Shown: in pieces, positions 3,034-29,815 of the stretch
Numbering within the stretch: the stretch's first letter is position 1
How the letters are laid out: each line of letters starts with the position of its first letter
Position numbers and translations under genes: made by a program
NCBI GenBank assembly: GCA_023014365.1
Contig: JAEBUN010000040.1
Coordinates: 62,001-126,000, forward strand
Length of the DNA stretch: 64,000 nt
Reading direction: 5' to 3'
Source of the DNA: Lepiota brunneoincarnata
Lineage: Eukaryota; Basidiomycota; Agaricomycetes; Agaricales; Agaricaceae
Notes under the pieces: model-generated
What the model was told of the DNA's origin: nothing
The model's database searches: none
The model's input: only the letters and a program-made list of their open reading frames with translations

Positions 3034-3035
3034 CT

Positions 3036-3911
3036 AAGAAGGAGCCTGCGTATAAGCACCAGGCCCCTATAGAGAGGAGTGTCGATGTGGAGGAAGTACT
3101 CAGCAGGGTATTGAAGCGAGAAGCCTCAGTATCGCATGGAGAACTCTTGGCATTGTCACCGATATACAGGAACGCTTATAGGGAGCGCATTATGAGAAAA
3201 CGGGTACCCACGAGTCAAAGCTTAATAGCAGGAGTAGGGCCCTGGGACGATGATACAGAAGATATAGAGATTAATAGTGGGCCAGTACAAGTCATGATAA
3301 CGGAGCTAGCAGACGGCACTCGGAAGTATGATACAGTGCTCCAAGAAGGCTCGGCAACCCAAGCCTGGGTAGCGCAGGATCCAATCATGCAGTACTTGGA
3401 GTCACTTCCTCGAAGAGACAGGGGACGGCAAGTGTTTATTGCGAAAGAATGCGAGCCATTGAGAGTAGTGCCAACTCTGATAAATGGGATTCGGCAGGAA
3501 GAGGCCTTGCTAGATAGCGGGTCACAGATCGTCTCCATGAGTCAGGAAGCGGCGATTGCATGTCAAGTTTCTTGGGATCCAGATACTACGATAAATTTGC
3601 AGAGTGCGAATGGGCAGGTTGAAAAGACTTGTGGACTGGCAAAGAACGTAGGCTTTACCTGCGGGGGAGTCACAATCTATTTGCAAGTTCACATCGTTCG
3701 TAACCCCGCGTATCGAGTACTCTTGGGACGACCCTTTGATGTAATGACGGCTAGCAAAGTCAGGAATAGCGCCAGTGGCGAGCAAACCTTGGTTATTACG
3801 GACCCAAATACCAGAGAACGGGCTGTGTTACCAACTTATGCTCGAGGAGAGTGTAATCCTCCTAAGCTTAGGGAAAACAGTCAAAATTTTCAAGAAACCT
3901 CGATGAGTTGA
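3036..3911 (+). pseudogene. Gypsy-1 gag C-terminus and retropepsin, 5' truncated
   Basis: The frame is open from the hAT boundary at 3036; the first internal ATG is at 3087. The protein contains a pepsin-like retroviral protease site, ALLDSGSQIVSMS, followed by the conserved strand YRVLLGRPFDVM, typical of the protease of fungal gypsy elements. It matures the element's own Gag and Pol. It ends at TGA 3909-3911, and the pol frame overlaps it by a few bases in a different phase. This could be a programmed or accidental frameshift. The N-terminal gag is cut off by the hAT insertion, so the copy cannot make a normal polyprotein. Confidence 0.75.
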
Positions 3912-6900
3912 CTGAGGGACAAGGAGAGGTGGCTTGTATAATAGACTATGATGATGAGAAGGGCCCTGTCGTCGCACAAACACTAAGCTTAGCAAAAGGA
4001 AGCTTCTCAGAGGCCGAGCTACAGCTAATGTTCATTGACCGAGTCATACGCGATGAGGACTGCCCACAGGAAGATAGAGCAACGGCGTTATCGTGCCTAG
4101 GGCACATCGCCAACGCACAGGATACGGAGGGTCAGGGAATGACTGTCTTCGAAACTGAAGGGGATGACGAAGATATTGTACAATGCCTGGCTGGGAAGAA
4201 ATATAAACCAGTCGCTTTAAAAGTGAGGCCAGTGTTAGGTGATTTACCGGAGAAATTCAGGATAAAACGAGAAATAAAAGGGGATCCGCTGGCAGAAATG
4301 CCTAAGCTTAGCATGCATCCTCCAGAGTTTGTCCCGACAGGCAGATATACGGAGGAGCGCAAGCTTAAGCTGGATGAAGCCCATGCAGGGGATCTCTTGT
4401 GGCCAGAAGAAAGAAAGCTGATGCACCAAGTCATGATGCTTCAGGAAAGGGCATTCGCATGGACAGATGAGGAGAGGGGATGTTTTAGGGAAGACTTCTT
4501 CCCGCCGATCGAGATACCGACGGTAGAACATACTCCGTGGGTGGAGAAGCCCATTCCGATTCCACCAGCGATCTATGATGAAGTCTGTGCCATTATAAAG
4601 AGAAAGATTAGTGCTGGTGTATACGAGCCGTCGAACTCATCCTATAGATCCCGATGGTTCTGTGTGGTGAAGAAAGATGGGAAAAGTTTGAGACTGGTAC
4701 ACAGCTTGGAGCCGCTGAACAGAGTGACGATAGCGCATTCAGGACTGCCGCCAGCAACGGAAGATTTGGCGATGCACTTTGCAGGCAGAGCTTGCGGAGG
4801 CATTCTGGATCTATATGTTGGCTATGACGAGTGACTGTTAGCTGAGTTGTCTCGGGACTTAACAACGTTCCAGACGCCTTTTGGAGCGCTACGCTTAGTG
4901 ACATTACCCATGGGATGGACCAACTCAGTGCCTATATTCCATGAGGATGTAACAGCGATCCTAGCCAGTGAGATACCAGAATACACGATGCCGTACATAG
5001 ATGATGTACCTATCAGAGGGCCGAAAACTAGATATGAGTTGCCAGATGGCACGGAAGAGACGTTGAAAGAGAACCCAGGGATCCGAAGATTTGTATGGGA
5101 ACATATGCAGACCGTCAATAGGATTCTACAGAGGATGAAATACGTAGGAGGGACCTTCTCTGGGCCCAAGATGACTATCTGCGCTGATGAAATCACCGTG
5201 GTGGGTTTTGAATGCTCATATAAAGGACGGTTGCCTGCTACAGACACCATTGGGAAGATATTAAGATGGGGGGATTGCGAGAATGTCTCCGAGCTAAGGG
5301 GTTTTCTAGGAACAGCTACGCGCTGCAGGAATCATATCCCAAAGTTCATAGCCATAGCGGCACCTCTGTACGAAAAGCTTAAAAAAGGGCAAGAGTTTGA
5401 GTGGGGAGAAAACGAACGGAAAGCGCAGCAGGAGCTGAAAGATGCGATTCAGCGCTGTTTCCCGACCAGGAACCCCGAATTTCCGAGTAAACAACCCATA
5501 GTAGTAGCCGTGGATACCTCATGGAGGGCGGTGGGATACTACATATATCAGAGAGATGGAGAAGACGCTAAGCTTATACATTATGTGAAGTTTGGGTCAA
5601 TATTATTGGATGAAAGACAGCAGAGATACTCTCAGCCCAAGCGAGAGCTATGTGGCTTAAGAATGGTGCTGGAACAAGAGAAATATTTACTGTGGGGATC
5701 AAGAAACTTAGTGGTGGAGACGGATGCGAAGTTTCTCTTCGGGATGTTAAACAACCCAGGGAAGCTCCCGAATGCCACAGTAAACCGCTGGGTGGACTTC
5801 ATTAGGTCGTTCCACTTCACGCTAGTACACAAAGAAGGGAAGAACTTTGGACCGGACGGACTGTCCAGGCGACGCTACTATCCCGGTGATGAGACAGCCC
5901 GTCGCTTCGACGATGGATCCGAGGATGAAGGAGAGGAGTTCGAACTGATCAAAGAAGATCCAGGGGCCACAGATCCTTTACCCTTGGAAGCCTTCTGCGA
6001 TGAGATCGACAGTCGCTCTGGCTTCAACCAGGGTCTGGCGCGTGATGTGTATGATTTTGAGTATGAGCTGGATCAAGCCCAGGAAGAGTACTTGGATGAA
6101 CAACAGGCTAAGCTTAGGGTTATAGAAGACCCAGCCTGTCCAGAAAACCATCGACAAGTACTAAGCTTAATGACAGATGTCAGGCTAGTGCCAGATTTCG
6201 AAGAGGAAAAGTCGGCCGAGATAGAGGAAACATATGATGAGTCGCGCAGGACAGATACAGCGCGAATACAAGATGAAAGGATACCCAAAGTCAGGGAATA
6301 CCTGAAAACAGGGGGCAGTAGCGCAGCTGAAGGCTTGGATGAGCCAGATCTGCGTAAGCTTAAGCATATGGTAGAGCATTTCTTCTTGGATAAAGAGGGG
6401 AGGCTGTATAGGACGAGTCCTAGCGGTCAGCATCAGCTAGTAGTGGATAAGGAGCAACGTATGTATATGTTGCGAGCCAGCCACGACTTCCTAGGGCACA
6501 GAGGAATATACGCAACCACTAAGCTTATAACGCAGAGGTTCTGGTGGCCGGAAGTTGAAGGAGACGTAGCTTGGTATGTGCAATCGTGCCATCTATGCCA
6601 GCAACGGCAAAAGGTGATCATCGAGACGCCGCCAATAGTAACGCCCACGCCGTCGATATTCCAAGTGCTACATGTGGACACACTACATATGACGCCAAGT
6701 TCTAATGGGTGTAGTTATATTGTGCATGGAAGGTGTGGACTGTCATCTTGGATGGAGGCAAAGGCGTTGAGAAAAGAGAACGCCAGTTCGATCGCGCAGT
6801 GGTTATTCGAAGATATCATTTGCCGATGGGGCTGTATAGTGAAGATTGTCACGGACAACGGTTCTCCATTTAAGAAAGCTGTTCGATGGCTGGAAGAAAA

Positions 6901-7657
6901 ATATGGGATAAAGGGAGTAACGATATCTCCTTACAATTCCAAAGCGAACGGGATTATTGAGCGACCCCACTGGGATGTGCGACAAATGTTGTACAAAGCT
7001 ACAGATGGAGACGTCAAAAAGTGATATTGGCACCTACCGCACGTTATGTGGGCAGATCGGATCACCATTAGAAAAGGAATGGGGTGTTCCCCGTACTTTT
7101 TGGTAACCGGAGCGCACCCGACGCTACCTTTGGATGTCAAAGAGGCCACTTGGCTGGTGCAGCTACCGAATAAGTACTTGACCACGGCCGAGTTGATAGG
7201 ATATCGAGCTCAGGCTTTGGCAAAACATGTTCAGCATGTTGAGGAGATGTGTCAGCGTGTTTCAGACACTAAGCTTAGCAAGGCTTGGGAAATGGAACGG
7301 CAAGCAGCGCATAAGATAAAAGACTATCGCTTCGGCGCGGGAGATTTAGTATTAGTGAGAAATACGGCTATAGAGAGCTCAGCAGACAGGAAGATGAAAC
7401 CCAGGTATCTAGGACCCATGGTGGTCATATCTAGATCAAAGGGAGGATCTTATATCCTGGCAGAGTTGGACGGTTCGGTATGGCAGAATAAAGTGGCGGC
7501 GTTCAGAGTAATTCCCTACTTAGCCAGGAAACATATACCGTTGCCGCCGGAATTACAAGAGTTGATAGATCTGTCGCCAGAGGGACTGAAGACCCTGGAG
7601 GAGACTACTGAGGATGAGCCTAGTGACAGATGGGAGCTGGAAGAGTTGGAAGGATAG
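3908..7657 (+). pseudogene. Gypsy-1 pol: reverse transcriptase, RNase H, integrase
   Basis: One reading frame carries the whole pol but is cut by TGA at 4832-4834 and TGA at 7022-7024. Recognisable parts are the RT with the catalytic box as PYIDDVPI (near 4990), RNase H (VVAVDTSWRAVGYYIYQ), the integrase zinc domain (HDFLGHRG then CHLCQQRQK), the integrase core (LHVDTLHM, VTDNGSPF, then NGIIERPHW) and a C-terminal tail ending EELEG. The first stop lies in the context GYDE-stop-LLAEL, where a CGA to TGA change would explain it. The second lies before [11 protein letters not shown]. Both are transitions of the kind left by cytosine deamination. The element could not move by its own pol unless these stops are read through. 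Confidence 0.88.
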
Positions 7658-7735
7658 AAAAAAAACCTGATATTGTGGACAGAACTATCTACTTATCGAC
7701 GGAAAACTATCCTAGGGACTGTAAAAGCGTTAAGC

Positions 7736-9083
7736 TTAAGTGGGGAGGGGCTTGTCCAAGTCGGAGAGGTTGCGCAAAAGACTTTTGAGACGGATGCGCT
7801 CTTGAATGAGGAATTGGAACCTCTTTAAGTTAGCTTCGAGCGAGGGAATAGCCTCGATGAAGTCCCGGCTGAGCAAATTGAGGTCGCATTTGACAGACCG
7901 AGCGTCGTCACTGCGAGATTCAGACTTGTACTCGTCGCAAGAGTGAGACAGGAGGTTTTGGAGTTCCTGGAGCAAACGAGCTGCCCGGGAAAAGTGTCAG
8001 AACCGCTAAGCTTAACGAACAGAAGTGAGAAATTGCCCACCGGATAAGCCTGCGAAGGTGCGCTCATCAGAAGCAGACTCGGTACGGGCGCGTTTGGCAG
8101 TATTGGCGCTGGCTTTGGCTAGAACCTGTTCAGCCCGGACATAACAGCAGTGTTTAGTGTTCATATTGGGAACTTGACAATAGGGAAGAAGACGGACAGA
8201 GCCTTTAGACGATGAGGACTTTTTGACAGTCTCCTAGAGAGAGAGGAAGTCAGAATCAGTGGTTGGGGGGAGTGGAGCTGGCGCACCACGTCGGAGGTAG
8301 ACAAACGACGCTTGCGATAAGGCGGAACTACACGAACCTCTTCGACGATAGCTTGAGAGACCTCCTCGTCGACCATCATGTCCTGAAGGCGAGCGATGAT
8401 CTCAGCCAATGTAATAGGTTGAGAAGCAGCTAGATTACCGTGTTAGCACCAGTTGCTCGGGAGTTGGAGGCACTATTCATACTCTCCACAGGCTCGGTAT
8501 CGGTGTCTACCACAACAGCAGCAGAGATAGGGGCCTTGCGACCCTTGCGAGGCTAAGCTTATGCATGAGAAGACAATTTGAAGCCAAAAGAACGCTAAGC
8601 TTACGCGTTTGGGGACAGCAGAGCCTTCGGCAACGTTGGAGGAAGTAGAGCCAGTCGTGGACGACGGGTTCTGAGCCTCTTCGGTACGGGTTTTGTGGGA
8701 TTCTTCAGAGCGGACGCGATTAATGCGGCTACAGCATTCAGAGAGCGCCTTATAGATCGCGGGCATCTCATAAGACGAATGGTAGTTGTTTTGGTAAATT
8801 TCGTAGAGCTTGCGAATACGGAAGACGTAGTCTTGGTTGACATGAAGCTTGATAGCTTCATTATCCTCCGATAACGCTTCAATATAAGCAGACTAGAAAT
8901 GATTGAGGAACAGCGAGAGAAGCATGAATAGAATAGACATACCCCAGGGGCGTCGAATGCGAGGAGAGCCTTCTCGACGAGGGGACGAGCGACTTGACCG
9001 TTTTGCAGGTGCTGAAGACGACCTTTGGTGTTGCTGATGAGATCGTCGAGCTCGACTTGAAGGTTGGGGATCGAAGAAGCCAT
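7736..9083 (-). CDS. Gypsy-1 antisense gene B, coiled-coil-type protein
   Basis: This multi-exon gene runs opposite to pol. Phase-consistent exons are 9083-8943, 8892-8605 and 8552-8439, then exons down to the stop at 7738-7736. The intron after exon 3 would be only 38 nt and is the least certain; the last intron probably uses the GTGGGC donor near 8035 and the CAG near 7982. The product is about 350 residues, helical and highly charged, with a basic patch (TAKRARTESASDE) and heptad-like stretches (SLEANLKRFQFLIQERIRLKSLLR). No known domain was recognised. The motif TAAGCTTA supplies the donor of intron 2 (8596-8603), its acceptor (8554-8561) and the stop codon (7731-7738). It lies just downstream of pol, tail to tail, inside the same retrotransposon. 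Confidence 0.6.
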
Positions 9084-9704
9084 TTTCTTACGAAGAGTGT
9101 CTGCTAGAATGAGACGTCGCTCCCTCGCTTTTATAAGAAAAGGCTGTCGGCAGTGATGATGAATCATGACGAGTGGATAAAGAGCACCCTCCACCCTAAG
9201 CTTATGACCTGAGAGGCCTAGGAAACCTGTAATCTTGAGTAGCCAGCCTTCGACAGACTAGCTGAACCACAGTTGCCTTATTGGGTAACAGGTCGCCAGG
9301 GTCTCGCGGTTATCAGTGTGCACAGGGATTCGGATGGAACGGTGAGGGCACCGATTTCAATTTGGCTAGGGGGAGACGGGCCCCAAGTGGCGCAAATGGC
9401 ACGTCAAACCCCGTGTACAGGCTGGTTCGGGTTCGGGCTTGTAAATGAAGCCGGAATGGATGACCGGTTCACTACACATGGCAAATCGTGGCGCGCTGAG
9501 ATGTCAATAAACATAGCAGAAGTATCAGAGAAATATCTGATGAGCGTATAAGCGGCTGGAAGCCTTAGCTTAGCTTGGGATATTCCAGAAGGGCCTTAAG
9601 CTTAACTCAGAAAGATACCAAGAGACAAGAATTGTTAAGCGAAATGTAACTATATACAGGACAAGAGGATATATTACATTCAAGAGAGGAAAGGGAAGCA
9701 GGCA

Positions 9705-11743
9705 CTAGTTCAAGTCCTCCAAGACAGACTCCGGATCCTGAGTCATCGGGAAAGCGAGGAAGAGGAGCGATTTGAGCTCCTCGAATTCTTCGTATGTCGG
9801 GACCCCCGGAAAGTTGTCAGCAAACTCGAAGAACGCCTGGACGTCTTTGAGGGACTCGGCCATACCCATCTCCACGAACGCCACGTCGTTACCGTCCAAG
9901 GCCGTCCTGGTAGCTTGCATCTCCTGGACGAACTGGTAGATTACACGGCGGTGGTGGAAGGCCGATGCCTCGTAGGCAACACGATTGGCCTCCAGACTGA
10001 CCAAGCTGGAGGACGCAACACGTGCGAAGGCAGCAAGATCTGGGAAATAAAAAGTAAATAAATGGGAAAAACAGTGAACAGAGAAACTTACGGTATTCAC
10101 TGGTCAGTGAGGACGTGACCAGGGCGTTCGCAACGCCAGCCGAGACTCGCGGATGGTCTGCGAAGGTACAGGGGTAGTTGTACAGGTCGCAGCTGCGACA
10201 CTTCTTACCCTTGCCCAGAGGCTCGCACTCCAATTTACGAGCGGCGCAAGTAGTGCACCGAGACCGAGGCGGCACGTACTAGGGAAGGGGCAAAACAGTT
10301 AATAAGGAAACACGAGAAAAACTTGGAGAACGTACCGAAAGCTGGCTAGCTGCCAGCAGCCTAGAAAAGTCCTCACAAAAGAGCGGGACTGGGTGCCAGT
10401 ATCCATGATCCCGGATTATTTCGGCTTCAGAACGTCGGATGCGCGCCCGGGGAGTATATTTCTTTGGGCGCGTGTTAGAGCTTTTCTTCGGTAGGGTTAC
10501 GCGCGCGCAACGCGACCCTGAAGGTCCGGCTTGGGGAGGCAAGGACTGGGATGTGTCTGGGACCACCGGGCTCGGCAAACGAGAGGGGACGGGGGTTGGA
10601 GAAGCTAAGAATGAGTCTTGAAAAACGAACGCCGGCTCCTGGGGAACAGGCGAAGGCTCCAAGAGGAGCTCCAAATCTGGAGAAGGCGAAGCCTCCGCGG
10701 GACTTGGGAGAGACTCGACTGAAGCAGAAGCCAAGTGAGGAAGCGAGGGCGTAGGACACCTGGGAGAGGCCAATGCGTTCCGCTCGACCAGGGTAGAGGA
10801 CCAGTTAAAAATTTTGAAGAGGTCTTCTTGGGAGACCTCTGGGACCGGAGAATGCGATGGCAAATTTGAACTCGCCAGGAACAGAGGCGACGGGGGCGGC
10901 GCAGATGACTGTGCACGTTGCTTGCCTTTGAGAGCGGCAGGGATACGAGCTATGAGGCACACTATTAGCAGGAGCGGAGAAATAAGCAGAAAAAGGCTTA
11001 AGCTTACGCGTAGAAGTAGCCGAAGAGGCTACAGGAGAGGAGGGGCGGTTTGTTGAAGGGCCCGGCACCTCTGAACCTGACGCAATACACAGGGGAGGGA
11101 GCACCAGCGAGCCTTCACCGTCCAGGGTGCGCAGAGAGACGGCGAGAGGAGGCAGCAACATTGAACTGGGCGGAGCCTCTGTGGATAATCCACCAGAGGG
11201 CCCGCCGACAGGAATACCTAACGAAAGTTCTGCGGACAATCTGGCAGAACTCTCGTCAGTTGGATTGCACAGTGACGCGATCGAGATGACGCGTCGCGGC
11301 ACAGGAGTGGACAGGGGAGTGGCCGGCCGAGAGGTTGGTTCGCGGGGCGGTGAGTACGGTGGGGGAGGGGTCCTATCCACACCTCCCTGGCGATTTCCAC
11401 AAGCTCCTCGTCCCACTCGCCCTCCTCTAGCTCTCCTAACACGTGGTGCTGGTGGTTCCCATTGAGGAAGGAGGTTGCGACGCGCCGGGAGGCGAATAGT
11501 GAGACCTAAGGACAAAGAAAGCATGAGGAAAACAACGAGAGCGAGAGAAAAGAGACTTACGTTGCGCAATTGACGAAGAGGGCGCGTCCTGAGAGGCCGG
11601 AGGGGCAGTGCTAGGCCCAGCGTAGTCTGAGGACAGTGTGAGGAAAAACAAAGATGATTGTAACACGAACTCTACTCACCAGAGGAGGAGTCCGTGTCTA
11701 CTTCGTATCGGGCACGTTTGCTGCTGCACGTGTTTCTGTCCAT
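9705..11743 (-). CDS. Gypsy-1 antisense gene A, Zn2Cys6 cluster protein
   Basis: Six exons join in frame with GT-AG introns: 11743-11680, 11626-11561, 11505-11008, 10949-10336, 10278-10092 and 10039-9705. They give 587 residues with no internal stop. Residues 1-400 are Pro/Ser-rich and low in complexity. A short conserved-looking stretch (RDHGYWHPVPLFCEDF) follows. Cysteines at about 422, 425, 432, 441, 444 and 451 fit C-X2-C-X6-C-X8-C-X2-C-X6-C, the fungal Gal4-type Zn(II)2Cys6 cluster, with a basic residue pattern (AARKLEC). The C-terminus (about 112 residues) is acidic and ends FPMTQDPESVLEDLN. By family knowledge this suggests a nuclear, DNA-binding protein; its target is unknown. It is intact although the element's pol is broken. 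A zinc-binding gag-like role is an alternative. Confidence 0.7.
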
Positions 11744-12055
11744 TGTTGATAGAAGTGGGCGTTAAGGAGTGATCTGCGAGCAGGATAAAACGAATAAAGA
11801 GTGAGAGGGAGAACGAAAGAGAGGAAACGAGACCTTGGGACATTTAAAAGACCCAATAAAGAGATAAAAATTTAAGCTATAGCAACAAGCAGTTGATCTA
11901 TACATTTAAACTCGGTGACATGACATCATTTGGAATAAGCTTAGCGAAAGTGCGCTACCCTCGAAGCTGGTGAACGTTCTAGACCATAGAGCGCGTCAGA
12001 GAGACTCAGATACTGCGAATTTGAAGGAGATAATGACTGAGGACAGTCAGCAATT
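11744..12055. other. Gypsy-1 noncoding spacer before the 3' LTR
   Basis: About 310 bp upstream of antisense gene A and before the polypurine tract, with no convincing open frame. It holds one TAAGCTTA palindrome at 11936-11943 and is the natural place for the antisense promoter. No specific promoter element could be identified. Confidence 0.4.
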
Positions 12056-12068
12056 GGTTAGGGGGAGA
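12056..12068 (+). other. polypurine tract of Gypsy-1
   Basis: The purine-rich run GGTTAGGGGGAGA sits directly before the TG that opens the 3' LTR. This is the standard position of the plus-strand primer for LTR retrotransposons. Confidence 0.7.
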
Positions 12069-13298
12069 TGATACGCCGATTTCACGCCTATACATGAATT
12101 CCGTACTCCGGAACGATTCTCTACATAGAATCATTGGCTATATCATTAAAGAACTCTATAGAGGATTGGTACTATGTCCCGTAGTAGCCAGTTCGACCGA
12201 ATTGAGGATATTCGAGCCTTGGAAGTGTTCAAACCAGTTCATTATCACTAAGCTTAGTGAACCAAACTATCGGAACGCTTTCCAGAGGGATTCAGGACTC
12301 TACATAGTCTATCGAGTATACTCCGGTCGCATCAAGGGACCTTACGAGCAGTTTTCTGATGAACCCGGATGCGTTTGAATATAAAGAATGTACCTAGCGG
12401 CTGTCGCAGGAGTATTATGTCGAAAGCGAGCCCAATAATGATGACCGGACCACGGAACGGAACGTTCAACGTTCGGGAGGCGACACCCGATGCCCAAAAC
12501 CCTAGAAATATCAAAGACTCCTAATTAACGAGTGCTTTGTGGGTCCCGGCACCTCGGCCTATTGCTTAACTGAGATTAATTACAACGGATCAAGGGACTG
12601 TCCATCCGCTATACATTCCGATCATAATTGATCCGGAGTCTTAACGCGCTCGCGTGGACGCAGAATAATGCAGACGAGCACGAAACACGTCTGGCTGGAT
12701 TGCCATTCGTTAATCAGAGAAAAACCCATAACCCAGGGCAAGGTAGAAATGCTGCCGAACCTTCCAAAATGTTCTACAGTGCCTGTAACAATTAAGCTTA
12801 TTGTTTTCTATTTCATATTTACTATCTCTCGTATGTATCTAAACAATATAAATACGGTCGCACTTGTTCGTGGAGAAGCAAGAGGTCTCACCCCCGCTTC
12901 CACACGCAAGTCTGCGAGCCGTGATCAAGAACGGTTTCAGAGGGCTATTTAGTGTGCATCGTTAAGTGTGAATTCTTCGGTCGTCGACCAACCCAGAGAC
13001 AGAGACAGAGACCAGAGACCAGAGACTAGAGACCCCGCGCTTTGAATTGACAGGGATTGTCCTTTCATTGTTGCACCGTACGGCTAAGATAACTTCAACG
13101 GCTGTTCGTTAACCTCTAAAACACTACTCTCTTGAATTTCGCTGTCAGAACGCACCCCCAGAACACCCTAAAAGACGAAACTGTTCCTTATCTATCTCAT
13201 TCCACTTGTATTAGCTTAAGCTTATCGAATTTCGGCTAAGCTTAGTGAAAACAAGCCCACTATCCATATTAAAACATACGAACGTTTTTACCTTTTCA
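12069..13298 (+). repeat. Gypsy-1 3' LTR
   Basis: 1,230 bp starting TGATACGCC and ending CCTTTTCA. The boundaries come from alignment with the second copy at 20389-21693: both share the sequence between these ends and differ outside. It contains four TAAGCTTA palindromes (12249, 12793, 13217, 13237) and a short GAGACA/CAGAGAC tract near 12995-13030. The right flank is Copia gag sequence. Confidence 0.85.
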
Positions 13299-14152
13299 CC
13301 GGGAAGAAAGGAAAGAAGGGGAAAAGCAAATCAGCACAGAAATCTACCACCCCTACTTGCCCTCCGGATTCTGAATGTCATATCTGCCATCTAAAGGGAC
13401 ATTGGGCTCCTGAATGCCCTTCAAGGTCCAAAGGGAAGGACAATACCGCTAAATCAGGTGGATCCACAAATATTGCTGTTGAGTAATCAAAACCCTCTGG
13501 CAATTGCAAGGTTGGAGTAATGTTGATAGCTTCAGCTGATGAAGCTGTTGCCTCTGGTATCTTGCTTGATTGCACTGCCATGGCCCACATGTTCATGGAC
13601 CATGATTTCTTTGTTTCCTATCAGGAGTCAGCTGATGGTGAATATATCACGGTTGGTGGCCATAATAGGGTCCCTGTTGCTGGCTATGGATCAGTTATGT
13701 TCCGTTCCATTCTTCTGAAAGGTCACATCAATATAACCCTTCAGAATGTCCTTCATGTTCCTCATCTGGGTGCCAACCTTGTCAGTTTAAGTGTTTTACA
13801 ACAAGGGGGAGCAAATTACTGCAGTTGTGGATCAAAGGAGTTGACACTCTCAAAAGGTGGCAATGAATTATTCCAAGTGGTCCTCACAGGGTCGACTGGT
13901 ACATTGTATCATATCCAATGCACAAAAATGGGCAGCAATCTGGCTTACCTTGCTAAAGGACAACTATCCATGCATATGTGGCATTGTCGTATGGGTCATT
14001 TAAACCCTTGGATCATTGACTTGATGCGCTGTGATCACCTTGTGAAAGGCTTGGACATTTATGCACCTTGCAAGTTTGACCATCTGTGCAGTGGTTGTGC
14101 AAGTGGGAAGTCTCACCATCTGCCTATGCCTGACATGAGCTCAAGTCATTAT
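13299..14152 (+). pseudogene. Copia element fragment: gag knuckle, protease, pre-integrase
   Basis: Right of the Gypsy-1 LTR, the sequence encodes a CCHC zinc knuckle (CHICHLKGHWAPEC, near 13379-13420). After a stop comes a Copia-type aspartic protease with a decayed active site (LLDCTAMAHMF in place of D-S/T-G), then the GAG-pre-integrase domain (MHMWHCRMGHLNP ... CSGCASGKSHHLPMP). The longest open part is 13520-14173. It is cut at 14152 by Gypsy-2 and resumes at 24118 with integrase sequence, so the two parts are one element. Confidence 0.8.
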
Positions 14153-14578
14153 TGTTATCAGAAGTCCCCTTAAACCCCCTTATCAGAAGCCTCACTGGAA
14201 GGAACTCTTATCAGAAGCACCAAGTACATAAATAGATAGAAGAACTGTCACTCTGAAACAATCAGAAGTGCTCATCAGAACAATCTATAGTTAGATAGAT
14301 AAGACCTTGACTCAGTATGACTCACCTTACCTGGGTCCAGATATATATAGTAGGAGCATAGCCACACATAGTAGTATATAAGGATACCATACTGTACCTT
14401 GTATCCTTATCTTAGTGTTATACAGTTCTTGCCTCCTATATCTCTTTGCCCCTAAACCGGCTGGACTATAGTGCTCCATCATCTCCAAGTCACGCTTAGT
14501 AGGATAGGACCAAGTCTGTATAGATATCCTGTGTTGAACTCCATGCTACTCAAGAGCGAACCCCTAACCTGGGTAACA
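14153..14578 (+). repeat. Gypsy-2 5' LTR
   Basis: 426 bp, TG...CA, the same length as the 3' copy at 23692-24117. A TATATATAG box near 14340 and TATATAAGGATACC near 14374 suggest the promoter. Preceded by the target duplication ATTAT. Confidence 0.92.
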
Positions 14579-15373
14579 AAACACTAAGATACTCTGCTGC
14601 TTATCCTCTTGCTTGCCCTCTGCTCTGCCAACGTACTGAATGTGTCAAGGTACTCTGTGTCGTGGAATATGATATTGTTGCCAATTGCAATGTTCTCTGT
14701 AGCCGTTGCTACATTCCTATCCTCTATCCTGTCTCTGCCAGCAGACCTGGCTCACCTATTGCTAGTGACCTTTGTCACCATAGCCATACTCTCAGCACAC
14801 TGCATCCTTACAGTCAAACTCAAACTCATACATTGCTACTGCAACTGCTGTTGCATCAGATCTTGGAACTTGTACCTTGGTATACAAGTTATCCTCACCC
14901 AATTCTTCATACTTCTAGCGGTAATTGATTGCTAGACAACTGCCACCACACCACCAAAGAAATTCTCAGCCTGAGAATCCCCATCACCCCCTCCTCCCAA
15001 ATCAAGAAACAGAATCTCATGACCAGGTATACAAAACCCGGACCCCAGAAGAAATCCTACACTGCAACCTACTCAAACACCATCACCATTCTACCCCCCA
15101 TCTCCATTTGACTCACTCGCTCCAAGTGCATCAACATCCACATGCACTCGAACAAGTTTTGCTGAAGAACTAGCAGAATGACAAAGAATACAACACAAAA
15201 AAGAATTAAAAGAACACTACGAACAAGAAGAAAGAAAACACAAACAAGCTGAAGAATATCATGCCAAAGTAGACCCACTAAACAACTTTGAACTTCAAAA
15301 ACTTGAATATGCCCTCAAACAACCAAGAGAACTTTCCCAATCAGAGGAAAACTTACTTACATGTCATGAATAC
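14579..15373 (+). other. Gypsy-2 leader and decayed gag N-terminus
   Basis: Between the 5' LTR and the first convincing gag sequence, short open frames in several phases carry Pro/Thr/His-rich translations but no conserved domain. A hydrophobic open frame at 14609-14935 has no support as a gene. I see the expected untranslated leader and a degraded gag start, with no clear tRNA primer site. Confidence 0.4.
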
Positions 15374-16979
15374 ATGGTAAACCAAGGAAGAACTCCCCCA
15401 GTAGACAACAACTCAGATGTCTACATCACCAACAACAACCAATCGGAATCCGATCCTCAACCACCTGCACTACCCACACCAAAACAACCCTTAGCCCTAC
15501 TGGTAACACCTGGACAACCACCAACACTGCCACTGCCACCACCTAGACAACTACAAATAATGGCCACTGCACAAACCCCAAAGGAGTTAGGACTCCTCAA
15601 ACCCATCACCTTCAATGGAACTAGAAAACTCTTTGAAGATTGGATCTTCCAATGTGAAGGGTATGTGCTCACTAACACAACCACTTACAACACCGACCTT
15701 GCCAGAACCTTGTTTGTCCTCTCAACGATGCAATCAGGAGATGCCTGAGCCTGGGCCAGACAATACCTCCATGAGAGGAACGCCCAAACCCAAGCAGGAC
15801 AACCCATAGTCATGAAATCATGGGACAACTTCACTGCCAGACTCAGAGCCAACTTCACCCTGGCAGATGAACATGCATATCACTGTGAACCCCTACAGGT
15901 TGTCATTTATGTCAGAAATAGTCAAGAAGTGAGAATTACACCAGATAGTGCCATTTTTAGGAGAGTATGTAATAATGACATTTTGATAATTACACCAGAT
16001 AACGCTGTTTTTCTGAATAAAGGTTGTAATTCTTTAATAATTCGATGTGAATTATGACACAGCCCCCACATTTTTTGACGTAAATTACGACTGGTAGGGG
16101 TTCACAGTGTATGTGCATACCAAACTCCAAACCCTGCACCAAGCAGGCAAACCAATGACTGAATTCAACTCTCAGTTCAAGGAACTCGTCTGTCAATCTG
16201 GACTCAATGAAGATTGCACCCTAATCAATCTATACCGCAAGGCAATTGACCGCTGTATTGCCATGAAAATCAACAAATCAGAAAACCCTCTGACAACTAT
16301 TGCTGCTTGGTACATCTGAGCAAATAAACTTGACAACAATTTCTGTCATACCAACACCCTTTACGGTACCCCCAGGAACACGTTCCCTCAGAGGAACCAA
16401 TACCAACCCAACCCTGGACCAAGCTGTCCAAACAACAACATGTCCTACACACAATTCTACCAAAGGAGTAACACTCCATGTTTTACCCCACGAGACCCAC
16501 ATGCCATGGAAATAGACCATGCCACAATGGAAGAAGGGTACGAAGACCCTTACCCAGAAATCCCTCAACTGGACTATGCCGAAGAAGACCTTCAAGACTC
16601 CTTGGAGTTAGATGCCATTGTTACCAGACAACAAATCAAAGCCTATCAGAACCAAGAATGCTTCCAATGTGAAGCTAAAGACCACTGGGTTAGCAAATGC
16701 CCTCAACCCTCTCAAGCAAGATGCTTCCCTGGAATGTGCACAAATCCCCCTCACCCTGCACGGAACTCCAACCATCCCTTCCCAGGACAACAAAACACTT
16801 GTCCCAGATTCCCAAACGGGAATGCCCAACCATCACCACAATGCAAATACTCTCTTGCAGTCACAGAAGTTGCATTGCAGATGCACCAAATGGTTGATGA
16901 CCTTGACCCTGAACTCCAACAGGAACTCCACTCTGCACTAGCCAAAGATCTGGAGATGTGTCCCTTCCAGGATTTTTGA
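15374..16979 (+). pseudogene. Gypsy-2 gag with zinc knuckle, interrupted by a MITE
   Basis: The retrotransposon gag core reads FNGTRKLFEDWIFQCEGYV, then after a TGA near 15746 continues AWARQYLHERNAQ ... ANFTLADEHAY. It resumes directly after the MITE as VHTKLQTLHQAGKPMTEFNSQF. The frame shifts again around 16320-16440, and the last part (16440-16979) holds a CCHC knuckle, CFQCEAKDHWVSKC. Gag packages the element RNA. At least one in-frame stop, one insertion and one frameshift make it non-functional. Confidence 0.75.
15881..16109. mobile_element. 229-bp MITE, copy 1, in Gypsy-2 gag
   Basis: Starts CACTGTGAACCCCTAC and ends with its inverted complement; the imperfect inverted repeat extends to about 35 bp. 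It is flanked by a 3-bp target duplication TAT (15878-15880, 16110-16112), and removing it restores the gag reading frame (DEHAY-VHTKL). CACTG ends with a 3-bp duplication fit the CACTA superfamily. The second copy at 28871-29099 has the same length, in reverse orientation. Confidence 0.92.
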
Positions 16980-19154
16980 AATGGAACACAGACTGATGTG
17001 CCCCTGCTTGTTCCCAGAAGGACTCTATATATTCTCACTCTCAGAAGGACACTTTCTCGATAAATTCTGTACAACTATGACTCTTCCCAAATAAATGATC
17101 CCTCTACCTACCCATTGAGATTTGGAGTGAATGGACATGAAAACCTGTGGCCATCACTGCCCTGATAGACTCAGGAGCCCAAGGGAACTTTATCTCCCAC
17201 AAAGTTGTTGAACAATATGGTTATCAAACCAAATGGCTGGACCAACCAGTCCCTCTCAGCAATGTTGACAGAACTGACAATCAACATGGCAAGATCCATG
17301 AATACATCAAAATCAGGACCATCATTGATGGAAGAGATTGCATGCTAGAAGTGTACGTTACAAACACTGGTGAGAAGGATCTCATCATCGGATTTCCCTG
17401 GCTGGAACAATACAATCCTGACATCAACTGGAAGACCAAGACATTCTCTTGGAAACCCCAAATCGATCACCAGGACTTTTCCAAACTCCTCAGAACCCTA
17501 CAATGACCTGTTGAACTCAACTCCATTGCCATGGACATAATGGCTGGAAAAACCTCTCAACCCAAGGAAAACCCTGAAGAATATGTCAACCTGTCAAATG
17601 TTGACCTCAACACCTTCTCTTTAGAAAGAGAAATGAATCCAATGCTTCTAACCCCATTAGAAGTAAACGCCAAAGTGACACATGCCACAATGCTCCACAA
17701 TAAGCAACACAACCCAACAAAATTGGCAAACCAAAAAGGAAAACAACTGGAATCAAATAAGGAACCACCTGAAATCCCTCAGAGATTCACCCAATGGGCT
17801 AAAATATTCAATAAGAAAGCCTCCAAACAATTCCCACCATCAAGAATGTTTGATCACAAAATTGAACTAAAACCAACATTCAAAGTGAAATTGATGAAAC
17901 CTTATCGTGTGGCACCTGCTGAAGAAAAAGCACTAAAAGAATTTATAGATGAAAACCTTTGAAAAGGGTACATCTGCCCCTCAAAATCCCCTATGGCATC
18001 ACCCTTCTTCTTTGTTGCCAAGAAACGAGGAGACCTCCGACCCTGCCAAGACTATTGTTATCTAAATGATCACACTGTCAAAAATGGCTACCCAATCCCC
18101 ATGATTTCCTCTATCATGGACAAACTCAAAGGAGCTAAGTACTTCACTAAGCTTGATGTCTGCCTAGGATACAATAACATCAGAATCAAAGATGGCAATC
18201 AATGGAAAGCAGCGTTCAAGACTCCTATGGGTCTTTTTGAACCAACTGTGATGTTTTTTGGACTTTGCAACAGTCCAGTGACATTCCAACATATGATGGA
18301 CACATTATTCTCCAAAATAATGGAAAAAGGAGGAATCATCATTGATATGGATGATATCCTAATCTACAGTAAAACCCAAGAAGAAACCAACCGACTTATG
18401 GAAAAAGTACTGCAAATCCTGTAGGAAAATGACCTACCTCAAAATGGAGAAATGCAAGTTCAACAAACAACAACTCGAATATCTTGACATGATCATCATG
18501 CCAGATGAGATAAAAATGGACCCTGGAAAACTCAAAGGAATAGAAGACTGGCTAGTGCCGAAAACAGTCTGACATATTTGGAAATTCATTGGATTCTGTA
18601 ACTTCTACTGGAAGTTCATCTGCAGCTACTCCCACCACACCAAACCCCTTAACCAACTCCTATCCAAATCAAACAAATTTGAATGGAAAGAAGAACAACA
18701 GAAAGCATTTGAAACACTCAAGAACGAATTCTTAAAAGAACCAGTGCTCCTCATGCCCAACTCCACAAAACCCTTTGAAATAGAAGCCAATGCTTCCAAA
18801 TTCACATCAGGAGCTGTCCTGTACCAACATGACATCAACAGAATATGGAAACCCGTATCATTCTATTCAAAGACGTTCAGACCAGCGGAACACAACTATG
18901 ACATCTATGACAGGGAACTCCTCACTATTATCCAAGCCCTTGAAGAATGGTGCCACTATCTCCTTGGCAGCCCCCATACTGTCCATATCAGAATGGACCA
19001 CCAAAACCTCATGTATTGGTGTAAACCCCAGAAAATCAACCGCCAACAAGCATGATGGGTCCAGACCCTTGCCGACTACAACTTTAAATTGGAACACATC
19101 CCAGGATCAAAGATCCCTGCACCAGATGCTCTATCAAGACATCCAGACCATATC

Positions 19155-19616
19155 TGTTAGGGCAACCTGGAGGGTTCGGACAACTCAGGGAGCCGAAACG
19201 TCACTGCAGGGAAATCCTAAGTATTATTAATCTGTGAGCTAAGTAGGGAGTCCATACCTGCAGGGAAATCCTAAGAGAATAGGATGAGGGAACCCCTGCA
19301 GGCGAAAACTATGTATATACTTGACTTATATAATCAATATAAATTGAACAAGGCTTGACGGTGGTGTCTGGGTGTTGCACAAGGCCAGGTGTGATTAAAA
19401 TGAGTGTGGGGAGTGAAGATAACAGTCTGAAGTCTACAGGAAATGGGAGGAAGCAGGTGAGGGTTAAGGAGGGTGTAGAGGGTGAAGGGAGGGGTTTAAC
19501 TGGGCAGTGAGGGGACCTCTGGTGCATTCTGGTTATGTTTGGGGTGTAAACGTTTGAAAGGGGGGATGTACAGTGTGCTGGGAGGCTTAGGGGTGTTTGT
19601 GGATTGTCCCCTTACA
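19155..19616. repeat. solo LTR in Gypsy-2 pol
   Basis: 462 bp beginning TGTTAGGGCAACC and ending GTCCCCTTACA, flanked by an exact 5-bp duplication ATATC (19150-19154, 19617-19621). Removing it joins the pol frame as HPDHI-PDEDNDNED. An 18-bp word (CTGCAGGGAAATCCTAAG) occurs twice inside, about 55 bp apart. The ends resemble those of the KH element LTR at 41102-41412, but the interior does not obviously match. Confidence 0.88.
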
Positions 19617-20388
19617 ATATCCCTGATGAGGATAATGATAACGAAGATGTTACCATGCTTCCAGACAACCTCTTTGTCACCACAGCTGACATAGAAGATC
19701 AGAACCTGATCACAGTACTCCCAGAACACCTCTTTATTGCTGCTGTCGATATGGAACTCCAAGAAAGAATCACGGAATCACCCAAATACAATGCTAGAAC
19801 CACTGAAGTGTTCAAACTCCTAAAGGAAACCCACCCTAACACCACCAATAAAGACTTTGGAACAGTTCTGACCTCAAATGGTCCACTCCTCACATTTCAA
19901 GAACGTGTCATCATTCCTGAAGACCTCCAACTCAGACGCGATGTCATCACAAGATACCACAACCACCCTACACGTGGCCACCCTGGAGAACAGGAAACAT
20001 ACTGCCCCACCAAGAAAGAAGTATATTGGCCAGGAATGTTGACATTCATAAAGAACTACATCAAAGGCTGTCCAGAGTGTCAGCAACACAAAATCATATG
20101 CAGACCAGATCATGCACTGACTCAACCGATCCCACCATCATCTTCCAAATGCCCATTTGCTCAGATCTCATGGGATCTTATCACTGGTCTACCACCTAGT
20201 GCTGGTCATAATGTGATATTGTCTGTGGTGGACCACAGCCTTACAAAGGGGGTAATTTTCATCCCAACCTCAGATCAATCAAACACCAACAACATCGGAT
20301 GACTATTAATAGAATTAATAGAAAAAGTCTTCACCAGGTTCAGATTACCCAGCAAAATCATATCAGATTGAGACCCCAGATTTGCCGC

Positions 20389-21693
20389 TGATATGCCAAT
20401 TTCATGCCTATACATGAATTCTGTACTCCGGAATGATTCTCTACATAGAATCATTGGCTATATCATTGAAGAACCCTATAGAGGATTGGTACTATGTCCC
20501 GTAGTAGCCAGTTCAACCAAACTAAGGATATTCAAGCCTCAGAAGTGTTCAAACCAGCTCATTATCACTAAGCTTAGTGAACCAAGCTATCAGAACGCTC
20601 TCTGAAGGGATTCTGGACTCTACATAGCCTATCGAGTATACTCCAGTCGCATCCAGGGACCTTACAAGCAGTTTTCTGATGAACTCAGATTCGTTGGAAC
20701 CTAAATAATGTACATAGCAGCTGTCACAGGTGTATTACGCTCATAGCAAGCCCAATAATGATGACTGGACCACAGAACAGAACGTCCAATGTTCGGGAGG
20801 CAACACCCGATGCCCAAAACCCTAGACATATCAAAGACTCATAATTAACAAGTGCTTTGTGGGTCCCGGCACCTCGGCATATTGCCTGACTGAGATTAAT
20901 TACAATGGATCAAGGAATTGTCCATATGCCATACATTCCGATCATAATTGATCCAAAGGCTTAACACACTCGTGTGGACACAGAATAATGCAGATGAGCA
21001 TGGAACACATCTGGCTGGATTGCCATTCATCAATCAGAGAAAAACCCATAACCCAAGGCAAGGTAGAAATGCTGCCAAACCTTCCAAAATATTCTGCAGT
21101 ACCTGTAACAATTAAGCTTATTGTTTTCTATTTCATATTTACTATCTCTCGCATGTATCTAAACAATATAAATACGGTTGCGCTTGTTTGTGGAGAAGCA
21201 AGAGGTCTCACTCCTGCTTCCACACACAAGTCTGTGAGCCATGATTAAGAACAGTTTCAGAGGACTACTTAGTGTGCATTGTTAAGTGTGATTTCTTTGG
21301 TTGTCGACCAACCCAGAGACAGAGACAGAGAACAGAGTCCAGAGTTTAGAGTTCCAGAGTGCTAGAGACAGAGATAGAGACAGAGAACAGAGTTCAGAGA
21401 CCAGAGACCAGAGACTAGAGACCCCGCGCTTTGAATTGACAGGGATTGTCCTTTCACTGTTGCACTGTATGGCTAAGATAACTTCAACCACTGTTTGTTA
21501 ACCTCTAAAAACACTATTCTCTTGAATTTTGCTGTCAGAACGCACCCCCAGAACACCCTAAAAGATGAAACTGTTCATTATCTATCTCATACTACTTGTA
21601 TTAACTTAAGCTTATTGAATTTCGACTAAGCTTAGTGAGAACAAGCCATTTTATCTATATTACAACCCAAGAACGTTTCCCCCCCCCTTTTCA
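20389..21693 (+). repeat. second Gypsy-1 LTR, solo, in Gypsy-2 integrase
   Basis: 1,305 bp aligning end to end with 12069-13298, starting TGATATGCC and ending CTTTTCA. It interrupts the integrase core between FAA and the following residues. The flanks CCGC (left) and CCAC (right) fit a 4-bp duplication with one G-to-A change. It is 75 bp longer than the other copy because of an expanded GACAGA/CAGAGT tract at about 21313-21425. Most differences between copies are CG in one and TG or CA in the other. Confidence 0.87.
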
Positions 21694-22579
21694 CCACCAA
21701 CTCCCTCTGAGAACTAGCCAAATGCCTAAAAATCCAACAAGCATTCTCAACCGCATACCATCCCCAGACAGATGGTTCCACTGAATGATACAACCAAGAA
21801 ATCAAGACCTACCTTGCCATATACTGTACCAGAAATCCCCTTGACTGGTCGGAAACCCTCCCTATCACCAAGTTCGCACACAACTCCAAAATACATGCCT
21901 CAAGGCAGAAATCCCCATTTGAACTAATCATGGGATACAACCCCCCACCAATACCCACAGTAATGGAAACTTCAAGCTTTCCATCAGTAGACAAACACAT
22001 CAGACTCCTTGATGATGCCAGAAAAAAAGCACATGCAGCACATCAACTCTCCACCGATATTATGAAACAAAGAACCAGAAGAACTGTCAAACCCCTTGAA
22101 ACATGTCAAAAAGTATGGCTAGAAGCCAAGAACCTCAAACTCCCCTTCATCTCCAACAAGATATCCCCAAAAAGACTAGGACCTTTCCTTATCTCAGAAG
22201 TCTTATTGCCACTCACATACAAACTAAAACTTCTGATCAAATGGAAGATACATCCGGTGTTCCACCGAAACCTCCTAACCCCATACAATGAAACAGAAGC
22301 ATACGGACCTCATCCAATGCCACTGCCACCAGACATCATCAACGAAGAAGAAGAATATGAAATCGAAGCTATTCTCAATCACCACCATTACTGTGGAAAG
22401 CTCCGATACTATGTACATTGGAAAGGATACTCCCACATGGAGAACTAATGGATATCAGAAGAAGATCTCCGCAACAATGCCAATGAATACTTGGAAGAGT
22501 ATAAAGAAGAACATCAACTTAACAGCAACGACCAGGAACTACCCAGAACCTACCAGAAGCAACTCCGCTCTATCACCAA

Positions 22580-23617
22580 ATGCACTCAAAAATATCCATG
22601 AACAACCTCAACCTCATCCATCCCCAATCCACTCCCCCCTTCTCCTCTTCCTCCACCACCTCCTCAGTTGTCATCATTGACGATCCCAATGTCAAAAGAA
22701 ACTCCCCAACTCCAACTCCAAGGCCATGTCCATTCACACCCTCCAATGCCTTTGTCAACATCAGAGACAAAACTCTTGACCCCAATGCTACACCCAAACC
22801 AGAGCCAGTAGCTGTCTTACCCATCAACTTCCACACAGCAGGAGTAAAGAATGTAGAACCAATTACAACCAGCATAGAAGACTTACACACCATCGCCTCC
22901 ACCCAATTCCTCACCGACAAAGTCAACAATGCCCCCATCAGTGATTATGACTGAGAAGTATGGTCAAACTATATCCATCATGTCAAACAGACAAAACTCC
23001 TCCATGACACCTTCCATGCCCAACAAAAGTGGACCAAAAACTACAAGGCATTCCTCCTCACTCACCAAGGACTCATGTCCCAAATGCCAAGAAAGAAACA
23101 AACCAATGTGGCACCTCCCATCAACAAAAACACTCCAACTCCCACATCAGGAAGAAAGAATCCTGTTGGAAATAACAACCCCTTCTGTAAAAATACCACC
23201 AAACCAACCCCAATACGGAACTCCCCTGCTCCCATTCAACAAATTCCAAACCCTAAGCCCAACAACAGATCCCAATGCATCCAATACAAACAAATCGGAC
23301 ATTGGGCTATGGACTGCCCCCAATTTGCTTGCCTCGGTTGCAAACAATATGCCCCAGGCCACTACTCATACAATTGCATCAAATATAGATGTCCACATTG
23401 CGGAGTATTCCAACCTTGCCATAAACAAACAGAATGCCCCTCAAAAGGAACAAGACATATGCCTTACAACAGACCTATGGCAGCTCAACCTCAGAATACC
23501 CCATCCCTCCATTACCAATACTTGGGACTTGAATACCCTGAGGAAGACAATTTTGATAATGGATACAACAACATTGCCATGTCCAATATGTGTGGAGAAC
23601 CAGTAGAAGATTTCTAA
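22580..23617 (+). pseudogene. Gypsy-2 third ORF with three zinc knuckles
   Basis: Downstream of the chromodomain, one frame runs from 22580 to 23617, broken only by TGA at 22952-22954. The first half is Ser/Pro-rich. The second half has a basic linker and three cysteine clusters in a row: CIQYKQIGHWAMDC (first knuckle, second Cys replaced by Tyr), CLGCKQYAPGHYSYNC and CPHCGVFQPCHKQTEC. The last two fit C-X2-C-X6-H-X4-C, and the tail ends GEPVEDF. Such knuckles bind nucleic acid in Gag-like proteins. A gene after the chromodomain is not part of the standard chromovirus plan, and its role is unknown. It could be a captured or duplicated gag segment. Confidence 0.6.
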
Positions 23618-23691
23618 AAACCCTACTCAAACACAACAGAAAGGAAAGACATAAATGGTTATAGTGGAATATAACCTTAGAAGTGAGGTAA

Positions 23692-24117
23692 TGTTATCAG
23701 AAGTCCCCTTAAACCCCCTTATCAGAAGCCTCACCGGAAGGAACTCTTATCAGAAGCACCAAATACATAAATAGATAGAAGAACTGTCACTCTGAAACAA
23801 TCAGAAGTGCTCATCAGAACAATCTATAGTTAGATAGATAAGACCTTGACTCAGTATGACTCACCTTACCTGGGTCCAGATATATATAGTAGGAGCATAG
23901 CCACACATAGTAGTATATAAGGATACCATACTGTACCTTGTATCCTTATCTTAGTGTTATACAGTTCTTGCCTCCTATATCTCTTTGCCCCTAAACCGGC
24001 TGGACTATAGTGCTCTGGCGTCTCCAAGTCATGCTTAGTAGGACAGGACCAAGTCTGTATAGACATCCTGTGTCGAACTCCGTGCTACTCAAGAGCAAAC
24101 CCCTAACCTGGGTAACA
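23692..24117 (+). repeat. Gypsy-2 3' LTR
   Basis: 426 bp, matching 14153-14578 with about ten differences, many of them C/T or G/A. Preceded by a purine-rich AGAAGTGAGG and followed by the target duplication ATTAT (24118-24122). Confidence 0.92.
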
Positions 24118-28870: not shown

Positions 28871-29099
28871 CACTGTGAACCCCTACCAGTCGTAATTTAC
28901 ATCAAAAAATGTGGGGGCTGTGTCGTAATTCACGTCGAATTATTAAAGAATTACAACCTTTATTCAGAAAAACGGCATTATCTGGTGTAATTATCAAAAT
29001 GTCATTATTACGTACTCTCCTAAAAATGGCACTATCTGGTGTAATTCTCACTTCTTGACTATTTCTGACGTAAATTACAACCTGTAGGGGTTCACAGTG
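28871..29099. mobile_element. 229-bp MITE, copy 2
   Basis: Same element as 15881-16109, inverted, and the same length to the base. It has a 3-bp target duplication ACC (28868-28870, 29100-29102). The two copies differ mainly at CG dinucleotides. Confidence 0.92.
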
Positions 29100-29815
29100 A
29101 CCGCCAAGTCCCCTATTCCTGGTCATTGCGAACTGATGATCCCCCTTACATTGTAGGCATTTTTGTATCCTCAGACAAATAGTACGGCCACCAGGAGTAG
29201 CACACTCACATATGCGATGTCTGCTGTTGGTGGTTTGTCAGAGTTATGTTTGAATCGGCGATGGATAAGCTTTCATGGAAAGGACTGCAGATACCCCCCA
29301 TCCTCCCCTCATATCCTGACCCTCCAATCATTATGAGGACAAAATCTGAACACGTTCACGTTGATCGCTCTACACGTCCATGGCTATATTAGTCGCGAAC
29401 GCCTGGTTCCTCACTCACATGTGTGCACTTGTTGACCTGAAATCAGCTTAATAGATGCATTCCCGTGATGATTAGTGTGACTCTGCGATTGCTGTTGGTC
29501 CCATCTATAGTGTAAGGACACCATACATGACAAATACTGCGCTACATCATGAACAGGGTTTGACGGTGGCAATGTTACGCGCCATGCTCGCAGGCTAACA
29601 TACTCCCCAGTCCTGTTTCCCAGCCCAGGTGACGACGGCAACCATCAGCCATTGCTAGATATAATGTCGAAGAAGTGCGAATCCTGGTATAAGCTAGGTA
29701 TGCAGGCTTACACAACACAAGGTTTGCCAAATCGTCAGGGCAGAATCTTATATTACCCAATACTATCCGACTAGACACTGTGCTGGGGGGATAATACTTG
29801 ATCCTCAACCCCACT
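29100..29815. other. no gene recognised
   Basis: About 700 bp. A minus-strand open frame at 29575-29850 overlaps the tail of the neighbouring DUF6533-like copy but shows no domain of its own. Confidence 0.35.

Follow-up and report, generated by a model that had tools for sequence, protein, structure and literature searches.

A retrotransposon family of Lepiota brunneoincarnata dense in one 8-bp palindrome, with antisense genes as candidate sources of its reader

The element and its palindrome

We analyzed a stretch of 64,000 nucleotides from the fungus Lepiota brunneoincarnata (assembly GCA_023014365.1, contig JAEBUN010000040.1, forward-strand positions 62,001 to 126,000; hereafter the window), in which a retrotransposon of subfamily A carries an 8-bp palindrome, TAAGCTTA, at high density. 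By its domains and by the paired long terminal repeats (LTRs) of full copies elsewhere in the genome, the element is a Ty3/Gypsy LTR retrotransposon (Table 1). Pfam scores exceeded the cut-offs in the order protease, ribonuclease H (RNase H), and integrase (PF13975, 35.7 bits with a cut-off of 28.2; PF17917, 46.9 with 24.8; PF17921, 60.7 with 25.5), and the reverse transcriptase (RT) core itself gave no Pfam match in frame 3908-4831. In the window copy, stops near 4832 and 7022 split pol into three frames. A full copy measures about 13.8 kb and has a gag frame of 670 amino acids (aa), a protease frame, and, in several cases, an open pol of 1261 aa; LTRs are paired about 12.6 kb apart in L009+L010, L011+L012, and L013+L014 (L numbers denote loci). 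The element into which a solo LTR of the same family has inserted spans 14150-23988 of the window, and its 300-bp terminal repeats are 99% alike.

Table 1. Coordinates of the element, its frames and antisense genes, and a solo LTR of its family in the window (splice sites of both antisense genes are predictions)
Feature	Position	Strand	Details
Ty3/Gypsy element, 5'-truncated, subfamily A	3034..13298	+	21 TAAGCTTA; left edge approximate, by eye against copy L010
Protease frame (PF13975)	3087..3911	+	TAAGCTTA at 3863
pol (RT-RNase H, integrase)	3908..7657	+	TAAGCTTA at 3984, 4303, 5569, 6109, 6162, 6355, 6520, 7270
Antisense gene 2	7731..9083	-	Predicted exons 9083-8943, 8892-8605, 8552 to ~8439; frame disturbed near 8430 here; 3' of 8430 by eye
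TAAGCTTA	9197..9204		114 bp upstream of gene 2 start codon
TAAGCTTA	9597..9604		Downstream of gene 1 stop codon
Antisense gene 1	9705..11743	-	587 aa; 6 predicted exons, 11743-11680, 11626-11561, 11505-11008, 10949-10336, 10278-10092, 10039-9705
TAAGCTTA	11936..11943		193 bp upstream of gene 1 start codon
3' LTR	12069..13298	+	TG...CA, ends by eye; TAAGCTTA at 12249, 12793, 13217, 13237; TATAAA at 12847
Same-family solo LTR inside another LTR element	20389..21693	+	TAAGCTTA at 20569, 21113, 21607, 21627

The window contains 25 exact copies of TAAGCTTA, compared with a mean of 0.83 and a maximum of 4 in 100 dinucleotide shuffles; 21 lie at 3863-13244, and the other four in the solo LTR. Within 3037-13290 it is the top-scoring 8-mer (21 observed versus 0.19 expected under an order-2 Markov model), and the signal is sharp, since one-mismatch matches number only seven there. 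A full copy, read as two pieces (L010 and L009), has 28 words, distributed as four in each LTR, three in gag, one in the protease frame, eight in pol, and eight in the antisense-gene region. Four of the 28 were dropped as LTR duplicates before sites were counted, and 12 of the 24 non-redundant words lie within the gag-protease-pol frames. One word of the LTR stands 54 bp upstream of the TATAAA.

Over the whole genome (55.6 Mb, 95 contigs), TAAGCTTA occurs 5370 times, whereas three palindromes of equal base composition occur 842, 419, and 675 times, the first and last of these containing CpG and TTAGCTAA (419) being CpG-free. In the first 876 kb of contig C1, where the list of sites was read by eye, the words are mostly clustered, several clusters repeat the internal spacings of the window copy, and three scattered single words lie outside both the clusters and a sister family, E (described below). 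Sampled non-family DNA (194,252 bases, with loci L001-L008 left out) contained four words, three in copies of family E and one elsewhere. The concentration of TAAGCTTA in one retrotransposon family is supported by these counts.

Selection on the DNA word

We regarded a position in a coding frame as permitted when, in any phase, the encoded amino acids would allow the 8-bp word. TAAGCTTA is used at 12 of 14 permitted positions in gag, protease, and pol (3/3, 1/1, and 8/10, respectively), whereas for all other 8-bp palindromes (255 together) the figure is 35 of 904 (Fisher test, about 6e-15). Among 5000 synonymous-codon shuffles of pol with the protein fixed, the mean was 0.06 words and the maximum 2, as against the eight observed. 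Besides, one site has turned over: where subfamily A has the word at 4303, both L032 (subfamily C) and L022 (subfamily B) have TGAGCTTA and carry the word at 4360 instead. Position 4360 is one of the two unused permitted positions of A pol, and the loss of one site with the gain of the other means that the site moved within 57 bp while the count was kept.

Retention of the word relative to the window copy was compared with that of matched AT-rich, CpG-free 8-mers, each copy being given a single binomial P value. In subfamily B, retention was 15/15 in L013 (matched rate, 0.61), 15/15 in L016 (0.62), 14/15 in L022 (0.58), 15/15 in L023 (0.69), 9/10 in L014 (0.76), and 5/6 in L015 (0.73); in C, it was 16/19 in L032 (0.57), 9/10 in L033 (0.59), and 5/6 in L031 (0.53); and in D, it was 10/11 in L035 (D2; 0.52) and 9/12 in L034 (0.48), where the word is in fact there at one of the three apparent losses, the alignment being shifted. 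The solo LTR kept 4/4 (0.62), and the A copy L020 kept 21/21 (0.96). Taken singly, P was below 0.05 for L013, L016, L022, L023, L032, L033, and L035. Because of the use of 12 of 14 permitted positions, together with retention and turnover across subfamilies, TAAGCTTA is almost certainly selected at the DNA level. The preliminary description of this DNA agrees with these results in its count (at least 21 exact copies in about 9.4 kb against about 0.15 expected) and in placing the word in two reading phases of pol, Lys-Leu and Leu-Ser-Leu, both of which are real; of the selection or copying that it proposed as acting on the DNA word, selection is borne out.

Two other accounts of the placement of the sites were rejected. 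Words are not placed at residues less conserved than their neighbors, since 6 of 16 residues inside words and 68 of 160 nearby are identical to those of family E, with no difference between the two. Nor did the sites spread by tandem duplication or as a mobile cassette, as no tandem array overlaps any word in window positions 1-24000 and the flanks are near random similarity (mean of 0.312 among sites versus 0.288 for random element positions; the largest value, 0.50, equals the 99.9% point of random pairs).

The flanks of the 24 non-redundant sites nevertheless have a shape. Among the 48 half-sites, C stands at -1 in 26, T at -2 in only 2, and C or G at -3 in 37, and two sites, one in the LTR and one in gag, are perfect 16-bp palindromes. 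Graded symmetric flanks around an invariant core are what a dimeric DNA-binding protein would leave, and on this symmetry TAAGCTTA is very probably a protein-binding site.

Antisense genes and the sister family

Antisense genes 1 and 2 both contain introns and both lie between pol and the 3' LTR. Fungal Zn2Cys6 clusters have the spacing C-x2-C-x6-C-x5-12-C-x2-C-x6-8-C. The pattern encoded by exon 5 of gene 1, C-x2-C-x6-C-x8-C-x2-C-x6-C, conforms to it, with the six cysteines kept in 10 of 10 listed sequences, and a candidate DNA-binding protein encoded on the antisense strand is supported. Structure prediction for this Zn exon and for the last exon gave mean predicted local distance difference test (pLDDT) scores of 56.7 and 48.6, too low to interpret, and the scanned part of gene 2 matched no Pfam family above the cut-off. 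The ratio of nonsynonymous to synonymous substitution (dN/dS) is 0.03-0.16 in the Zn exon of gene 1 (seven element copies) and 0.10-0.46 in exon 2 of gene 2 (eight copies), and both genes are under purifying selection between subfamilies. A stop lies within the Zn exon of two of the seven copies (L032 and L034), which are dead copies for this reason. Antisense introns vary in length among copies, with the GT and AG ends mostly kept and AT for GT in some copies; intron 3 of gene 1 was cut short by the alignment in two of five copies. An intronless gene 1 copy at C20:651383 was rejected as proof of splicing, as the intron is retained in frame there.

Synonymous divergence (dS) between subfamilies is 0.9-1.7 in exon 4 of gene 1 (window 10336-10949), 0.13-0.33 in pol, and 0.12-0.32 in exon 2 of gene 2; the history of gene 1 may be older or involve recombination. 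At L029 (contig C60) and L030 (contig C35), in stretches 97-99% identical to each other, there is a host-like gene 1 paralogue, whose identity is about 62% over 110 aa of the final exon. Neither TAAGCTTA nor a pol of this kind was found in the 10-kb stretches at these loci, and the paralogue is possibly the source gene or a domesticated copy of gene 1.

The eight words of the antisense-gene region (7655-12069) occupy introns, untranslated regions, spacers, and an apparent stop codon, and none lies in an assigned coding exon. Thus, the preliminary description was right that words are spread through pol, introns, spacers, and LTR, and its inclusion of the antisense genes holds for their noncoding parts and not for assigned coding exons. 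The words at 8596 and 8554 form the donor and the acceptor of one gene 2 intron in all seven copies compared, two of which have an AT donor, and the word at 10999 serves as donor for intron 3 of gene 1. Another, at 8007, lies in a likely further intron of gene 2, and the word at 7731 is at the apparent stop codon of that gene (by eye).

Family E was found by a search with a diverged pol seen in L034 beside a family copy, and its DNA was covered in L034, L036, and L037. An intact copy has an open pol of 1260 aa, 64.7% identical to that of A, in which TAAGCTTA is permitted at three positions and used at one; TAAGCTTA occurs just once in the surrounding 13 kb (C1:684575-697690). One further word lies 41 bp after the E pol in L036, and no other dense word was found in the intact E pol or in L034 and L036. 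Family E is not saturated with TAAGCTTA. Downstream of pol in L036, a decayed copy, no match to gene 1 or gene 2 was found (best E values, 3.0 and 2.3). A family that is unsaturated and, in L036, has no detected antisense genes fits a paired system of word and genes. At L036:3954-5300 (contig C36), after the E pol, short sense frames stand where subfamilies A to D have the antisense genes, each with one hydrophobic, possibly membrane-spanning stretch (by eye).

Candidate readers and related systems

The best overall explanation, to which we would give an even chance, is a symmetric site read by a product of the antisense module that marks copies as self, and we infer both the identity of the reader and its effect. 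On this view, a sequence-specific DNA-binding protein would read the integrated copy from end to end, its recognition site having two-fold symmetry with TAAGCTTA as the unvarying core, and DNA-level selection, which the computations support, has put the word where proteins, splice sites, and promoters tolerate it. An origin of this reader in the antisense module is slightly favored. Gene 1, with its Zn2Cys6-like cluster and C-terminal tail, would come first and gene 2 second, although the gene 1 protein itself is a tentative choice, a little short of even. Dense binding on every copy would mark the family as self and keep the LTR and antisense promoters open, through action in trans like that of the Arabidopsis VANC proteins. 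Such a self-marking or anti-silencing role is possible but somewhat doubtful. We hold with the same reserve the complete proposal of a self-address system, in which an antisense-encoded protein would read the palindrome in the LTR, in introns, at splice sites, and at nearly all permissive gag-protease-pol positions, so that copies are recognized in trans and kept expressible.

Several observations weigh against this explanation. The PF00172 match of gene 1 is under the cut-off (13.8 versus 21 bits; E value, 0.063), a search of solved-structure sequences with gene 1 gave four weak matches to designed proteins and no Zn cluster, and known Zn2Cys6 proteins mostly favor CGG half-sites, which TAAGCTTA does not contain. 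Assigned antisense exons use none of their three permitted positions, so saturation is true of the sense frames and not of these exons. Retention was singly not significant for L014, L015, L031, L034, and the solo LTR, nor for L020; moreover, the copies share ancestry, L013 and L014 make up one and the same copy, as do L015 and L016, and the tests are not independent. Family E is a single contrast with a few words of its own, its downstream region being known from one decayed copy. Finally, CpG transitions amount to 8-45%, versus 4-11% at other C/G positions, in pieces of subfamilies B, C, and D and in two old LTRs, which suggests that the host methylates the family, and yet CpG decay is flat with distance from the word (0.241, 0.250, 0.250, and 0.239 at 0-25, 26-75, 76-200, and >200 bp, from 448, 1152, 2739, and 2795 positions, respectively). 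Local removal of methylation by a reader, if any, has therefore left no trace in the copies compared; an effect over the whole element, or one limited to active copies, would be compatible with the flat decay.

The self-recognition site proposed in the preliminary description accordingly stands in part: the word is selected and family-specific and lies beside a candidate DNA-binding gene, but CpG decay near the words speaks for no local protection. That description also took related elements without enrichment as speaking against such a site. Family E is an element of this kind, yet the region downstream of pol in L036 also has no detected antisense genes.

A reader supplied by the host is the strongest alternative, unlikely in our judgment but to be kept in view: the element would have gathered binding sites for a transcription, boundary, or chromatin factor of the host, much as the Drosophila gypsy insulator recruits Su(Hw). 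Everything in the sequence that points to protein binding fits this equally well, and the best candidate within the element, gene 1, falls under the Pfam cut-off; on the other hand, a host factor would have to be reconciled with the scarcity of the word outside the family, both in the 194 kb sampled and in the 876 kb of contig C1, and with the unsaturated family E in the same host. Biased copying, in which recombination or gene conversion between copies would favor the word with no benefit to the element, is improbable. It would account for a sharp, exact word at high density in coding and noncoding DNA alike, and the DNA uptake words of bacteria offer a likeness, but flanks barely more alike than random mean that no longer tract spreads, the symmetric flank preference suggests binding, and we know of no such mechanism in fungi.

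Slightly less probable still, in our view, is that the word acts at the RNA level, being read as UAAGCUUA in genomic RNA of the sense strand, for instance in packaging or export. The unspliced sense RNA of a full copy would contain all 28 words, and since a palindrome reads identically on the two strands, DNA and RNA cannot be told apart by sequence alone; however, the two-fold symmetry of core and flanks suits a dimer bound to DNA, whereas reading in RNA has no need of it, and words also stand at splice sites of the antisense genes and ahead of their start codons. Chance, base composition, protein constraint, or descent from a single ancestor has very little probability. Site positions are largely common to copies, as descent alone would give, but the Markov expectation, the shuffles with protein and codon usage fixed, the use of permitted positions compared with that of other palindromes, retention above matched 8-mers, turnover, and the lack of any tandem array over the word all oppose it, and as a sufficient explanation it was rejected.

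Regulators encoded by mobile elements or retroviruses include HBZ, foamy virus Tas, and En/Spm TnpA, whose known sites are limited in number and confined to ends or promoters. They resemble the proposed reader in that the element or virus encodes its own regulator, in HBZ from the antisense strand, and differ in that none of their site sets is known to be spread along a whole element. HBZ is also named in PMC11963269. The Drosophila gypsy insulator is likewise a part of a Gypsy element with many sites for one DNA-binding protein, but there the reader is the host protein Su(Hw) and the sites form one cluster, whereas here they are dispersed over the element. The literature searched yielded neither a comparable role for TAAGCTTA nor a comparable element; of 23 papers that contain the letters of TAAGCTTA, the 15 listed bear titles on unrelated subjects.

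Of known mechanisms, the nearest is VANC/VANDAL of Arabidopsis. There, a short motif abounds in a single family of mobile elements and is scarce outside it, and related families differ in motif (PMC5735166, PMC10398659). The present element shares with VANDALs the family-specific dense short motif and element proteins beyond transposition (PMC5735166, PMC10398659). The VANC21 motif, YAGTATTAY, is non-palindromic, has one orientation, and lies mainly in noncoding tandem repeats (PMC5735166, PMC10398659). VANDALs are DNA transposons, whereas here an LTR retrotransposon carries a dispersed palindrome that forms no tandem array and occurs also in coding DNA.

In architecture, the nearest counterpart is the antisense open reading frame (ORF) of Retand-like elements. 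The plant Gypsy elements Retand, Grande, and RIRE2 carry, between pol and the 3' LTR, genes that run opposite to gag-pol, and the Retand ORF has a predicted DNA-binding domain and a suggested regulatory role (PMC11963269, PMC7264820). Antisense genes 1 and 2 (minus strand, 11743-7731) have the same placement. Those elements differ in belonging to plants, in having TRP28 (PF04195), and in carrying tandem repeats in about half, and the sections of the papers drawn on mention no saturated word (PMC11963269, PMC7264820). Among Pfam matches with E values up to 1, neither gene 1 nor the part of gene 2 that could be read showed TRP28.

The antisense genes of several Gypsy families lack an assigned role in the sections of the papers drawn on (PMC7264820, PMC11963269), and here they adjoin an obvious candidate target palindrome. 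If the proposal is true, it would give a function to unexplained Gypsy antisense genes, and a VANC-like strategy would have evolved independently in a fungus. If an element protein reads the word, retrotransposons would have sequence-specific self-recognition comparable to that of plant VANC, and scanning elements for family-specific saturated words could reveal more such systems.

Other features of the window include a tandem array at 1661-2192, whose unit is 30 bp and whose higher-order periods are 61, 91, and 152 bp, and a pair of inverted repeats at 15880-16109 and 28871-29100 (230 nucleotides, 97% complementary, 12.8 kb apart). Two minus-strand frames match Pfam families, namely, Transposase_21 (PF02992; E value, 3e-23) at 34915-35808 and a KH domain (PF00013; E value, 2.8e-07) at 41464-42612. 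The 3.7 kb at 43030-46728 are repeated at 96.9% identity on contig C36 (L036:6298-10000).

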